Assembly (NCBI GenBank): GCA_937880925.1
Contig: CALGGB010000145.1
Span: 1-40,144, forward strand
Source: an uncultured Rhodospirillaceae bacterium
Lineage (GTDB): Bacteria > Pseudomonadota > Alphaproteobacteria > SP197
Reading direction: 5' to 3'
DNA: 40,144 nt
This document shows, in pieces, positions 14,891 to 18,714 of the stretch. The notes below the pieces were generated by a model that searched no databases, was not told the DNA's origin, and saw only the letters and a program-made list of their open reading frames with translations. Within the stretch, counting starts at the first letter, position 1, and the number at the start of each line of letters is the position of its first letter. Position numbers and translations under genes: made by a program.

Positions 14891-16057
14891 ATGCACCACG
14901 CCGTTCGCGATCTCGTCTGTTCGTTGCCCGAGCCCGGCTGGAATTATGGTTATGCCCGTTCGCCGTTCTACGACCGGGCCCTGGCATGCGGCGCGACCTT
15001 TGTCGTTTACAACCGGCGCATGATGCCGGTCTCGCTGAAGACCAGCGACCGCTTCGAGGGTTACTGGGCGCTGCGCCGGGGCGTCACGCGGCTCGATACC
15101 GGTGAACTGCCGACCGAGATCGCCGGCCCGGATGCCGAACGGCTGCTCAACCGCATCTTCACGCGGGATGTCTCGAAGATGAAGCCGGGCCGCTCGACTT
15201 ATGGCATCGCCTGCTGGGACGACGGCGGCCTGCTGGTCGACGGCGTCCTGATCCGCCTCGAGCAGGACCGCTTCTGGTACGTCCAGGCCGACGGCGATTT
15301 CGTCGGCTGGACACGCGCCCATGCCATGGGCATGGATGTCGAGATCAGCGATCCCCAGTCCTGGGTGCATCAGATCCAGGGGCCGAAGTCCTTCGACGTC
15401 CTGGCCGATGCCTGTGACGACGGCATGCCCGATCCCTTCCGTTATTTCGATGCCCGCGAGGTGACGATGGGCGGGCAGAAGGTGCTGATCACCCGCACCG
15501 GCTGGACCGCTGAGCTGGGTTTCGAGATCTACACCTATCCGGACATGGACCACGCCGCGCTGTGGGATCACGTCAGCGCCGCGGGCGCGCGCCACGGCAT
15601 GATCGACATCGGGCTCGACGCCATGGACATCCGCCGCATCGAGGGCGCGATCTTCAACAACGGCTCGGACATCGATGCAACGATGACGCCCCATGCGGCG
15701 GGCATGGGCGGCTTCGTCGCCATGGACAAGGGCGACTTCTTCGGCCGCAAGGCGCTGGAAGGGGCCGACCCGCGCACCCGCATGTACGGCATTGCCTGCA
15801 AGGACGCCGAGGCGTTGGTCGGCGGCCCTGTCGCGCGTGGCGGCAAGCAGATCGGCCACATCACGGCGTCGGGCTGGTCGCCTTACCTCGAGCAGGGCGT
15901 CGCCTTCGTACGCCTCGAAAGCGCAGACCTGGTGGAGCCGCGCGGGGTCGAGGTGATGGGCTTCGATCTCAAGATGCACCCGGCACAGATCGTCGACCTG
16001 CCCTTCTACGACCCCGAGAAGCGCATCCCGCGCGGCCTCGACAAGCCGCAGGTCTAG
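14891..16057 (+). CDS. GcvT/DmdA-like aminomethyltransferase-family protein
   Basis: A 388-residue folate-binding-fold protein of the glycine cleavage T-protein superfamily, in the clade that includes dimethylsulfoniopropionate demethylase DmdA. Visible landmarks are SPFYDRALACGATFVVYNRR near the N-terminus, VHQIQGPKSFDVL (OB/folate region), ITRTGWTAELGFEIY and the C-terminal IVDLPFYDPEKR. Family members transfer methyl or aminomethyl groups to tetrahydrofolate. There are no glycine cleavage partners (GcvH, GcvP) nearby. ATG 14891 has GGGGAG 8 bases upstream. A paralog lies at 23012-24154. The stop interlocks with the MFS gene (CTAG). Substrate is not determinable. Confidence 0.8.
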   Translation: MHHAVRDLVCSLPEPGWNYGYARSPFYDRALACGATFVVYNRRMMPVSLKTSDRFEGYWALRRGVTRLDTGELPTEIAGPDAERLLNRIFTRDVSKMKPGRSTYGIACWDDGGLLVDGVLIRLEQDRFWYVQADGDFVGWTRAHAMGMDVEISDPQSWVHQIQGPKSFDVLADACDDGMPDPFRYFDAREVTMGGQKVLITRTGWTAELGFEIYTYPDMDHAALWDHVSAAGARHGMIDIGLDAMDIRRIEGAIFNNGSDIDATMTPHAAGMGGFVAMDKGDFFGRKALEGADPRTRMYGIACKDAEALVGGPVARGGKQIGHITASGWSPYLEQGVAFVRLESADLVEPRGVEVMGFDLKMHPAQIVDLPFYDPEKRIPRGLDKPQV

Positions 16058-17244
16058 GCCACCCTGCGGTCCAGCCAACGCACGTAAAGGGCCGCGCCAA
16101 GGGCCAGCGCCGACGAGCCAAGCATCATCGCAAGCAGGGCCTGCGGCGCATTGGCCGGCGTCAGGATGGCGCCGGTGAGGCCTGAAATCAGCGCGCCGCC
16201 CGCCACGGTCAGGGCGCCTGCCAGCCCGGCGGCCGTGCCTGCGAGAGAGGGCCGCACCGACATGGCGCCTGCCGCGCAGCTCGGCATGGTGATGCCGTTG
16301 CCGATGCCGACAAAGACGCAGGCGCCGAACAGAAGGGGCGGCGTGACGATGCCGGCCACAACGATGGCGAGGCCCACCGACAACCCGCCGCAGGCGACCA
16401 GCCGGCCGATGATCATCATCGTCGCCAGCCCATGGCGGCCTGAGAAACGTCCCGCCAGAAAGCTGCCCAGGACGAAACCCGCCGTGATGGTACCCAGCCA
16501 AACGCCCAGGGTGCCCGGCGACATGGCAAAGACCGTGGCTGCGACCAGCGGCGCGCCGCCCAGGAAGGCGTAGAAGGCGCCGGTGGAAAACGCCATGCAG
16601 AGGGCAAAACCCCAGTACTGCCGCGAACGCAGCAGTTCGGGATAGGCATGGAACTGGCGCGCCAGGGTGGGCGATGGCGCGGCGTTGGTCTCGCCCAGAT
16701 CGACCCAGCACAGGGCGAGCAGGGCGAGGCCCAGAGCGAACAGCAGAACGAAACTGGCCCGCCAGCCGAACAGTTCGTCGAGCGCGCCGCCCAGCGTGGG
16801 GGCGAGCATCGGCGCAATCGCATAGGCCATGGCGAGATATCCGATCAGGCTAGCGGCCTTCTGCTCGGGCGCGGTATCGCGGATCACCGCCATCGACACG
16901 GTGTAGCCGGCAACGATCACGCCCTGGGCCATGCGACAGACAAGGAAGCTCCAGACATCCGGGGCGACCATGCAGCCCAGCGAGGCCAGGACAAAGACGA
17001 TGAGTCCCCACAGCATCACCGGACGCCGCCCGAAGCGGTCCGACAAGGGCCCGAGCACGAGCTGCAGCGCGGCGGTGACGATCGCGTAACCCGCGACCGA
17101 AAGGTTCACCAGGGCGTAGTCGGCCCCAAACTCTGCCGAGATGTTGGCAAGCGAGGGCAGGAACAGGTTCAGCGTGCCGACGGAAAGACCGGCCAGCAGG
17201 ATCAGGGTGAAAAAATGGGGCGGTGTGCGCGTGGTGGCGGTCAT
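16054..17244 (-). CDS. Bcr/CflA-type MFS multidrug efflux transporter
   Basis: A 396-residue inner-membrane protein with 12 predicted helices. Motif A between helices 2 and 3 reads GPLSDRFGRRPVML. Helix-4 RMAQGVIVAGYTVSMAVIRD and the helix-5 region IAPMLAPTLGGALDELFGW match the Bcr/CflA drug:H+ antiporter group (motif C). This family exports bicyclomycin, chloramphenicol-type and other drugs. It stands alone on the minus strand. A terminator hairpin lies 29 bases upstream of its ATG, preceded by a small ORF, which suggests attenuation control. Drug specificity cannot be read from the sequence. Confidence 0.88.
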   Translation of the reverse strand: MTATTRTPPHFFTLILLAGLSVGTLNLFLPSLANISAEFGADYALVNLSVAGYAIVTAALQLVLGPLSDRFGRRPVMLWGLIVFVLASLGCMVAPDVWSFLVCRMAQGVIVAGYTVSMAVIRDTAPEQKAASLIGYLAMAYAIAPMLAPTLGGALDELFGWRASFVLLFALGLALLALCWVDLGETNAAPSPTLARQFHAYPELLRSRQYWGFALCMAFSTGAFYAFLGGAPLVAATVFAMSPGTLGVWLGTITAGFVLGSFLAGRFSGRHGLATMMIIGRLVACGGLSVGLAIVVAGIVTPPLLFGACVFVGIGNGITMPSCAAGAMSVRPSLAGTAAGLAGALTVAGGALISGLTGAILTPANAPQALLAMMLGSSALALGAALYVRWLDRRVA

Positions 17245-17273
17245 GGGGGCATCCGGTCGCTTAAAAAGCAGGC

Positions 17274-17299
17274 AAAAAAAAGCCCTCGGAGTCGAGGGC
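17274..17299 (-). terminator. Strong intrinsic terminator upstream of the MFS gene
   Basis: On the minus strand GCCCTCG pairs with CGAGGGC around a 4-base ACTC loop, followed directly by eight T residues. This is the best rho-independent terminator in the window. It lies 143 bases downstream of the last GFA gene and 29 bases before the MFS ATG. It either ends the amidase-GFA operon or acts as an attenuator for the MFS gene. Confidence 0.88.
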
Positions 17300-17325
17300 G
17301 CGCAGCAGAACGGTGGGGCGGGTGC

Positions 17326-17376
17326 CTACCGTACCTTGCGCTCTTGCCTGGTTACGACGCGGGAAACCGGAATCAT
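17326..17376 (-). CDS. Candidate 16-residue leader peptide ahead of the attenuator
   Basis: A small ORF reading MIPVSRVVTRQERKVR, then TAG. It has a good ribosome binding site: GGAG at 17386-17389, 9 bases before ATG 17376. It ends 26 bases before the terminator stem on the same strand. The C-terminal RKVR holds a Lys/Arg-X-Lys/Arg pattern (KVR), the kind of sequence at which macrolides arrest ribosomes in known leader peptides. The downstream gene is a drug efflux pump. The peptide is too short for statistical proof; it could be chance. Confidence 0.45.
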   Translation of the reverse strand: MIPVSRVVTRQERKVR

Positions 17377-17421
17377 GCCGGGATGCTCCGTTGAATGGGG
17401 TGCGGCCTGTCCGCTGCGGCG

Positions 17422-17451
17422 ATCATGCATCGCCTGTATGGCCTATGTCAC
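17422..17451 (-). promoter_or_regulatory. Weak candidate promoter for the leader transcript
   Basis: On the minus strand GTGACA (5 of 6 to TTGACA) is followed after 18 bases by CATGAT (4 of 6 to TATAAT). It would start transcription about 40 bases before the leader ATG. It overlaps the end of the upstream GFA gene. The match is modest. Confidence 0.25.
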
Positions 17452-17856
17452 GTCTTCGCGTGGCAATACGCCGTCCAGATGCAGCCAGGGCAGTTTCGAG
17501 CCAACGTAGATGTGGCGTTCCCTGGCGGCCGCGCCGGGGTGGCGGCCGCCGTCCAGCGTGCCGGGCATGAACCAGATGGACCCGGGCGATGCCGCGACAT
17601 CAATGGTGATCTGGCAGCCGCAGGTCCGGCAGAAGTTGCGCGTCACACCGGGTGAGCTGTCGAAGTGGGAGAGATTGTCCGCACCCCGGATGATGGTCAG
17701 GGCCGGGCGTGGCGCGATGGCATAGGTGGCAAAGGAGACGCCATGGACCTTGCGGCACATCGAGCAGTGGCAGTGGTAGAGGTCGGTTGCTTCCTCACGC
17801 ACCTCGAAGCGCACCGCGCCACACTGGCAACCGCCGGTCAGGGTGTCGAATGGCAT
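17443..17856 (-). CDS. GFA-fold (glutathione-dependent formaldehyde-activating family) protein, copy 1
   Basis: A 137-residue zinc-binding protein of the GFA/CENP-V family. The cysteine pattern is complete: GGCQCGAVRF (11 onward), HCHCSMCRK and FCRTCGC. The family name comes from Gfa, which promotes S-hydroxymethylglutathione formation, but most members have unproven functions. It is the last of three tandem copies; its ATG shares one base with the TGA of copy 2 (TGATG). The copies share only the zinc motifs and fold pattern, so the duplication is old. Confidence 0.88.
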   Translation of the reverse strand: MPFDTLTGGCQCGAVRFEVREEATDLYHCHCSMCRKVHGVSFATYAIAPRPALTIIRGADNLSHFDSSPGVTRNFCRTCGCQITIDVAASPGSIWFMPGTLDGGRHPGAAARERHIYVGSKLPWLHLDGVLPREDVT

Positions 17857-18302
17857 CAGGTTTTCTCCGGGCCGAATTCGATGAAGCGTGGCAGGTGGTC
17901 GTGCGGCTCGTACCAGCCGGTGCGCGACTCCCAGAAGATGTGGCGTTCCGTACCTTCACGCCCGCCGGGATCGGCGCCCGCGTCCAGGATGCCCGCGGAA
18001 AACCAGATGTCGTCGGGTTTGCGTTCGACCTCTTCCCAGACATGGCTGCCGCAGGTGCGGCAGAAATGTCGGTGCGTGGTCGGCGAGCTGTCGAAGGTGC
18101 CGAGGTTGTCGGCGCCGGACAGCAGGTGAAAGGCCTTGCGTGCAACCACCGCATAGGTCGGGTAGAGCGCGCCCTGCAGCTTGCGGCAGATCGAGCAGTG
18201 GCAGTGATAGACGTCGTGGGCCGGGGCGGTGATCTCGAAGCGCACCGCGCCGCACAGGCAGCCGCCCTGGCGCGGCGCGAAGGCGGTGGTGTCAGTCGCC
18301 AT
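17856..18302 (-). CDS. GFA-fold protein, copy 2
   Basis: A 148-residue GFA/CENP-V family protein. Zinc-binding motifs are GGCLCGAVRF, HCHCSICRK and FCRTCGSH. The C-terminal TERHIFWESRTGWYE matches the TDERHIFWDSRVSWYD segment of copy 3, so these two are closer to each other than to copy 1. Its start overlaps the end of copy 3 by 11 bases, indicating coupled translation. Substrate is unknown. Confidence 0.88.
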   Translation of the reverse strand: MATDTTAFAPRQGGCLCGAVRFEITAPAHDVYHCHCSICRKLQGALYPTYAVVARKAFHLLSGADNLGTFDSSPTTHRHFCRTCGSHVWEEVERKPDDIWFSAGILDAGADPGGREGTERHIFWESRTGWYEPHDHLPRFIEFGPEKT

Positions 18303-18714
18303 AACCCGTGTCCTTTCTCAGATCGTCGCCCGTGTCGTACCAGCTGACGCGCGAGTCCCAGAAGATGTGGCGCTCGTCGGTGGGGGCATGGCCCGGGTTC
18401 TCGCCGGCATCCAAGGTGCCGAGCACGACGAAGACGCGGTCACTCCACTTGTCGATGCGGTTGAAGAGCTGGCAGCCGCAGGAGGGACAGAACAGGCGGT
18501 GTATGCCGGGCGAACTCTGGAAATCGGCAAGGCTGGCGCTGCCGCAGTCGATCGTCAGCGCGGTCGCGGGGTAATCGCCGAAGCTTGCGAATAGCGCGCC
18601 GTGCGCCTTGCGGCACAGGGAGCAGTGGCAGTGCAGCACCTCGCGCGGCGGGGCCGTGATGGTGTAGCGCACGGTGCCGCACTGGCAGCCGCCGTGGATC
18701 GGTTTGAGGCCCAT
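18292..18714 (-). CDS. GFA-fold protein, copy 3
   Basis: A 140-residue GFA/CENP-V family protein with GGCQCGTVRY, HCHCSLCRK and FCPSCGC. The ATG at 18714 is chosen because it gives the family's usual N-terminus (GLKPIHGGCQCG) and has GGGAG about 10 bases upstream. It lies 43 bases after the amidase stop on the same strand, so amidase and the three GFA genes probably form one operon. The link suggests a shared pathway around an amide or thiol adduct, which is inference. Confidence 0.87.
   Translation of the reverse strand: MGLKPIHGGCQCGTVRYTITAPPREVLHCHCSLCRKAHGALFASFGDYPATALTIDCGSASLADFQSSPGIHRLFCPSCGCQLFNRIDKWSDRVFVVLGTLDAGENPGHAPTDERHIFWDSRVSWYDTGDDLRKDTGYGD

Follow-up and report, generated by a model that had tools for sequence, protein, structure and literature searches.

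A valine-codon leader and terminator conserved upstream of a Bcr/CflA-family transporter gene in Alphaproteobacteria: a probable branched-chain amino-acid attenuator with homologs before ilvB

The closest described systems to the locus reported here are the ribosome-mediated attenuators of branched-chain amino-acid genes (E. coli ilvB, ilvGMEDA and leu, among others; PMC6123439), in which, as here, a Val/Ile/Leu-rich leader and a terminator stand before the gene. In Alphaproteobacteria, the uORFC-8-2 motif of Rhodobacterales cysS (PMC8632094) likewise combines a short leader with tandem cognate codons and has been attributed to ribosome-mediated attenuation, and the Rfam family RF02502 is catalogued, as an sRNA alone, under the name 'Rhizobiales sRNA Atu_C8'. 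The drug-inducible attenuators of msrD/mef and cmlA also place a leader peptide before a resistance-type gene, cmlA belonging to the same MFS family as the gene studied here. A literature search of limited coverage found no paper coupling Bcr/CflA transporters with leader peptides or branched-chain amino acids, and the ilvB leader discussed below may have been described. In this work, we analysed a 40,144-nucleotide stretch of DNA from an uncultured Rhodospirillaceae bacterium (hereafter the window), in which a drug-responsive attenuator, sensing macrolides through a basic-X-basic peptide motif, had been predicted before a Bcr/CflA-type pump. Based on our results, we propose that this leader is a ribosome-mediated transcription attenuator that senses how far the tRNAs for branched-chain amino acids, valine above all, are charged. 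We put the probability at about 0.82, a figure that covers the branched-chain amino-acid attenuator and not the substrate of the transporter.

The leader ORF with its ribosome-binding site, the terminator and the Bcr/CflA-type gene all lie where the original prediction had placed them. The parts of the locus, all on the minus strand, are as follows.

17443, minus strand: stop of the upstream neighbour, a GFA-domain gene
17422..17451, minus strand: weak sigma-70-like promoter, GTGACA-18-CATGAT (9/12), lying partly within the 3' end of the GFA gene
17389-17386, minus strand: ribosome-binding GGAG, 5' of the leader ORF
17376 (ATG) to 17326 (end of TAG), minus strand: leader ORF of 16 sense codons, MIPVSRVVTRQERKVR followed by a stop; position kept in orthologs
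17353..17358, minus strand: putative control codons GTC GTA (Val7 Val8), aligning with the (I)VVV run found elsewhere
17341-17337 (feature 17337..17348), minus strand: 5' arm of helix P1, GCGCA; conserved GGCGC(AUGG) in relatives
17348-17346, minus strand: GGC, optional extension of P1 across a bulge
17300..17304, minus strand: 3' arm of P1, UGCGC, directly abutting the terminator
17282..17299, minus strand: intrinsic terminator hairpin GCCCTCG-ACTC-CGAGGGC with a 7-bp stem; helix covaries in relatives
17274..17281, minus strand: U8 tract (eight T in the DNA)
17275..17385, minus strand: whole attenuator, as matched by a covariance model from which the window had been left out
16054..17244, minus strand: regulated gene, a Bcr/CflA-family MFS transporter of 396 aa that clades with other leader-bearing transporters

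The leader stop codon is 26 nt from the terminator stem, and the U tract is 29 nt from the transporter ATG at 17244. The transporter scores 217 bits against the curated cut-off of 200.9 of TIGR00710 and therefore falls within the Bcr/CflA MFS family. Taken alone, the terminator is unremarkable and scarcely beyond chance: a scan found three terminator-like sites, of which this one is the best, and shuffled sequences give 1.8. Folding of the leader RNA, which had been suggested as a check, showed it to be more stable than shuffles (z=-3.0). A direct Rfam search of the region returned just a chance match to anti-hemB. Three consecutive overlapping GFA-domain ORFs (17443-18690, minus strand) lie upstream of the leader; the GFA domain is that of glutathione-dependent formaldehyde-activating enzyme-like proteins.

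The same order of leader, terminator and pump is kept upstream of orthologous pumps at 19 loci, the window included, in the sampled alphaproteobacterial genomes. The module was found at two further pump loci, both in one family, and in named records of Roseobacter, Phaeobacter, Leisingera and Burkholderia (69-79 bits), which brings the total to at least 24 orthologous pumps, counting that of the window. The shared order consists of a TTGAC-N17-TANNNT promoter-like site (in most), near which the weak promoter of the window lies, a short ORF of 15-17 codons (21 in one), the terminator, and the pump start 29-65 nt further on; typical peptides are MTTSIVVVGTWRMVR, MHILIVVVGERRLDR and MNTGVVLVGSRRMDR, each followed by a stop codon. 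The window leader shares 56-74% DNA identity with the others. Upstream regions of paralogous pumps below about 40% identity were without such a leader. The genes upstream of the module vary between loci, the promoter-like site lying just 5' of most leaders, and no conserved operon partner was seen among the ORFs of the pump neighbourhoods. In maximum-likelihood trees, one clade takes in all leader-bearing pumps, plus a few without a leader; its named leader-bearing members include Rhodobacterales, and some copies are on conjugative plasmids. The leader-pump unit is also present in Burkholderia (Betaproteobacteria), which suggests that leader and pump were transferred as a unit. In the locus of one relative, a c-di-GMP-I-GGC riboswitch lies downstream of the pump (L005:3625-3717, minus strand).

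We searched 385 alphaproteobacterial genomes with a first covariance model, built from pump leaders. Beyond pumps, it gave four strong matches, all in one family and each directly upstream of ilvB, the gene of the acetolactate synthase large subunit. In this family, whose label 'Rhodobacterales-like' rests on gene content, the leader occurs in 51/61 genomes, and all matches with a downstream gene read precede ilvB (for example MASILVLVGERRMGR and MDTLLVIVGTWRMGR, each ending at a stop codon) except two (G396, G399), which precede the pump instead. The longest branched-chain run in these ilvB leaders is mostly five codons. In the pump-leader genomes examined, ilvB was without this leader. A second covariance model, built from pump and ilvB leaders with the window left out, recovers the window leader (17385-17275) with 34.8 bits, at E=9e-7 (9.1e-7) in 40 kb and E=9.5e-5 genome-wide, where it is the sole match at E<=1e-4. 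Since the module is kept by orthologous pumps and its copy in the window is recovered by a model trained on other leaders only, it is not a chance arrangement. The translated-leader transcription attenuator originally proposed to control the pump is supported. A weak match outside Alphaproteobacteria (G539, L181) was discarded, having neither ilvB nor a pump downstream. Another family provides a further ilvB leader with a terminator (L211 in G202; MSLLIVPCAPNEGLA and a stop codon). In the ilvB 5' regions L096, L100 and L103, a terminator-like hairpin and U-tract come without an obvious leader ORF, and control there may be of another kind.

The conserved element of the peptide is a Val/Ile run, which the original prediction had missed, and not the basic tail. 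In most leaders a Val run occupies residues 6-10, and 23/24 pump leaders have at least two consecutive Val/Ile/Leu codons. Valine accounts for 61/281 codons in leaders (22%) vs 542/7277 in pump genes (7%; odds ratio 3.4, p=2e-13), and the rare GTA for 21/61 Val codons in leaders (34%) vs 21/542 in pump genes (4%; odds ratio 13, p=5e-12), the GTA bias being measured across the family and both p-values being optimistic, as the sequences are related and phylogeny is ignored. Within the family, the window copy is divergent: it has just two consecutive Val codons (Val7-Val8) and a weak promoter. It is this codon run, the over-use of GTA and the homologous leaders before ilvB that lead us to propose that a branched-chain amino-acid attenuator here governs a transporter gene.

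Also missed before was a conserved helix, P1 (GGCGCAUGG/CCAUGCGCC), whose arms flank the stop codon together with a small hairpin and whose 3' side meets or overlaps the base of the terminator. Its pairing holds in 90.5% of cells, a share that never exceeds 52% when the arms are slid; its pairs hardly vary and shuffles reach an equal score, so that P1 has no covariation support, unlike the terminator helix. The overlap between the 3' arm of P1 and the terminator stem is 0-5 nt across leaders; in the window, P1 reaches no further than the edge of the terminator unless the bulged GGC/GCC pairs form, and in L042-type leaders the two are separate. The last branched-chain codon is mostly 11 nt from P1. 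When truncated transcripts, ending before the terminator 3' arm, were folded with the ribosome parked on the penultimate branched-chain codon, P1 had a mean probability of 0.85 (0.84 in the window, where that of the P1 core is 0.84-0.95). The complete terminator dominates at equilibrium in nearly all leaders, with a mean probability of 0.89 for a stalled ribosome vs 0.998 for a ribosome at the stop codon. Because the terminator nearly always wins at equilibrium whatever the ribosome position, any switch must be kinetic, and the equilibrium calculation does not confirm one. P1 is plausible as antiterminator.

Reading the observed architecture, codon bias, ilvB-leader homology and predicted P1 in truncated transcripts by analogy with classical attenuation (PMC6123439), we infer the starvation response and the switching itself as follows. 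With ample Val-tRNA, the ribosome would reach the stop codon and cover the 5' arm of P1, the terminator (17299-17274) would form and transcription would end ahead of the transporter gene. Under shortage of Val (or Ile/Leu), the ribosome would instead halt at the Val/Ile codons, some 11 nt 5' of P1, leaving P1 free to form; in most relatives the 3' arm of P1 would capture the lowest 2-5 nt of the terminator's stem, and the polymerase would then read through into the Bcr/CflA gene.

Three other explanations were weighed against this branched-chain attenuator. The predicted drug-responsive attenuator, in which a drug-bound ribosome arrests on the leader, at a basic-X-basic or an ErmAL1/ErmCL-like hydrophobic motif, and so turns the pump on, draws some support from the CmlA/FloR exporters of the Bcr/CflA family, from the Val run at residues 6-10 and the 'MTTSIVVVG' of the leaders, which we take to resemble ErmAL1, and from a Leisingera plasmid copy near a chloramphenicol phosphotransferase gene. 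Alignment of the orthologous leaders, however, conserves the leader ORF and not the basic-X-basic pattern, which is C-terminal in 3/24 pump leaders and 0/5 Rhizobiales leaders and present anywhere in the peptide in 6/24 pump leaders. The macrolide version fails for this reason, a lack of conservation that the original prediction had itself named as telling against it. The codon bias in GTA, moreover, points to sensing of tRNA and not of peptide, and homologous leaders stand before ilvB, which they would control in the same way. We therefore retain the attenuator before the pump, drop its sensing of drugs through basic-X-basic, and regard direct drug sensing by any motif as improbable; drugs may still induce indirectly, for example where they inhibit AHAS or the charging of Val/Ile/Leu tRNAs. 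Scarcely more favoured is a leader that acts mainly in trans as a small RNA, with attenuation as a by-product. The Rhizobiales version is indeed filed in Rfam as an sRNA, RF02502 fully matching seven pump leaders at 97-111 bits vs a cut-off of 50 (L199, L201, L202, L203, L205 and L207, from Rhizobiales plasmid records, and L042), and the trp attenuator of Sinorhizobium has been reported as a dual-function sRNA (PMC10117765), but the cis position before pump or ilvB is conserved, as is the Val run at codon level. The third explanation, already raised with the original prediction, is that the ORF is spurious and the terminator just closes the GFA operon that precedes it. The GFA stop codon does lie 143 nt before the terminator, and such sites are frequent (the three found vs 1.8 expected); yet the module precedes the orthologous pump in unrelated neighbourhoods, whatever gene is upstream, most relatives have promoter-like sites of their own just upstream of the leader, and the score from the model built without the window is significant, which leaves this explanation very little room.

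The purpose of the transporter is a separate question within the branched-chain attenuator. A starvation switch on an exporter-family gene is physiologically odd, which counts against the proposal. By family name, membership says exporter. The main rival on transporter function is a variant in which the attenuator works as a toxin sensor, the pump exporting inhibitors of Val/Ile/Leu-tRNA synthetases or acetolactate synthase and the uncharged tRNA inducing it. This would explain why a starvation switch drives such a gene, and it suits both the nearest solved relatives, EmrD and MdfA, and the copies on conjugative plasmids. We know of no such inhibitor for these hosts, however, and two observations suit metabolism better, so that we consider this variant rather unlikely. 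The pump ortholog of the Agrobacterium tumefaciens plasmid pAt2 (L195) belongs to the leader clade; a TPP riboswitch (RF00059, 2324-2440, 74.6 bits) stands in the place of its leader. In the sister clade, transporters are divergent to a propionyl-CoA carboxylase-type carboxyltransferase gene in three genomes and upstream of a RamB/PccR-type regulator in three, the names pccB and PccR being our reading of the sequences, as the curated models matched are of related families and below their cut-offs. As further observations, the sister-clade loci L048, L049, L060 and L051 are leaderless, the carboxylase-type gene was not seen for L051, and TTTGCAAA-like repeats lie upstream in three of the four. 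On the Leisingera conjugative plasmid, the chloramphenicol phosphotransferase-family gene (L196:972-1526) and two GNAT genes adjoin the leader-controlled pump.

Intermediary metabolism is suggested by the proposed starvation switch, the TPP riboswitch and the propionyl-CoA locus alike. The substrate of the transporter under the branched-chain attenuator is thus probably not a macrolide but a metabolite of branched-chain/2-oxo-acid metabolism, and transport of valine, isoleucine or 2-oxo acids would fit. A bolder and much more tentative proposal is that this widespread 'multidrug efflux' clade transports short-chain 2-oxo acids or branched-chain intermediates, such as 2-oxobutyrate, an intermediate that accumulates under limiting activity of the TPP-dependent acetolactate synthase. 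If true, this would account for three controls together, namely the branched-chain attenuator of most members, the TPP riboswitch of an Agrobacterium member and, in the sister clade, the location beside a pcc-type gene and a PccR-like regulator. More broadly, our data suggest that a class of genes labelled 'multidrug efflux', present in Alphaproteobacteria and in some Burkholderia, is coupled to the supply of valine and other branched-chain amino acids, which offers a handle on its natural substrate.

Compared with the known attenuators of branched-chain biosynthetic operons, the present family is alike in having homologous leaders directly before ilvB in the Rhodobacterales-like family, and differs in that the gene regulated here is a Bcr/CflA transporter; one attenuator is thus common to a biosynthetic gene and a transporter, and in one transporter it is replaced by a TPP riboswitch. 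Unlike the classical leaders, most of those described here have 15-17 codons, and the proposed antiterminator consists of one helix, placed around the stop codon, that overlaps the terminator base by 0-5 nt. The cysS uORFC-8-2 motif has Cys codons, another gene and another RNA (PMC8632094). The Atu_C8 RNA is filed as an sRNA, its P1 and terminator are separate, and the window is not matched by RF02502 even at E=5, and so does not reach the gathering cut-off; sub-threshold matches of 32 bits fall on ilvB leaders in G265 and G202. Going by the matched leaders, Atu_C8 probably corresponds to this attenuator or to the RNA left by termination at it, and would thereby gain a likely identity as a cis attenuator. 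RF02502 members begin near the leader AUG, and the leader may therefore be leaderless in those loci. Unlike those of msrD/mef and cmlA, our leaders are without a conserved arrest motif and have a branched-chain codon run with codon bias. Finally, in T-box-regulated amino-acid transporters an uncharged-tRNA signal turns on a transporter, as proposed here, with the difference that our mechanism would rely on a ribosome and a leader peptide and not on tRNA-RNA pairing.
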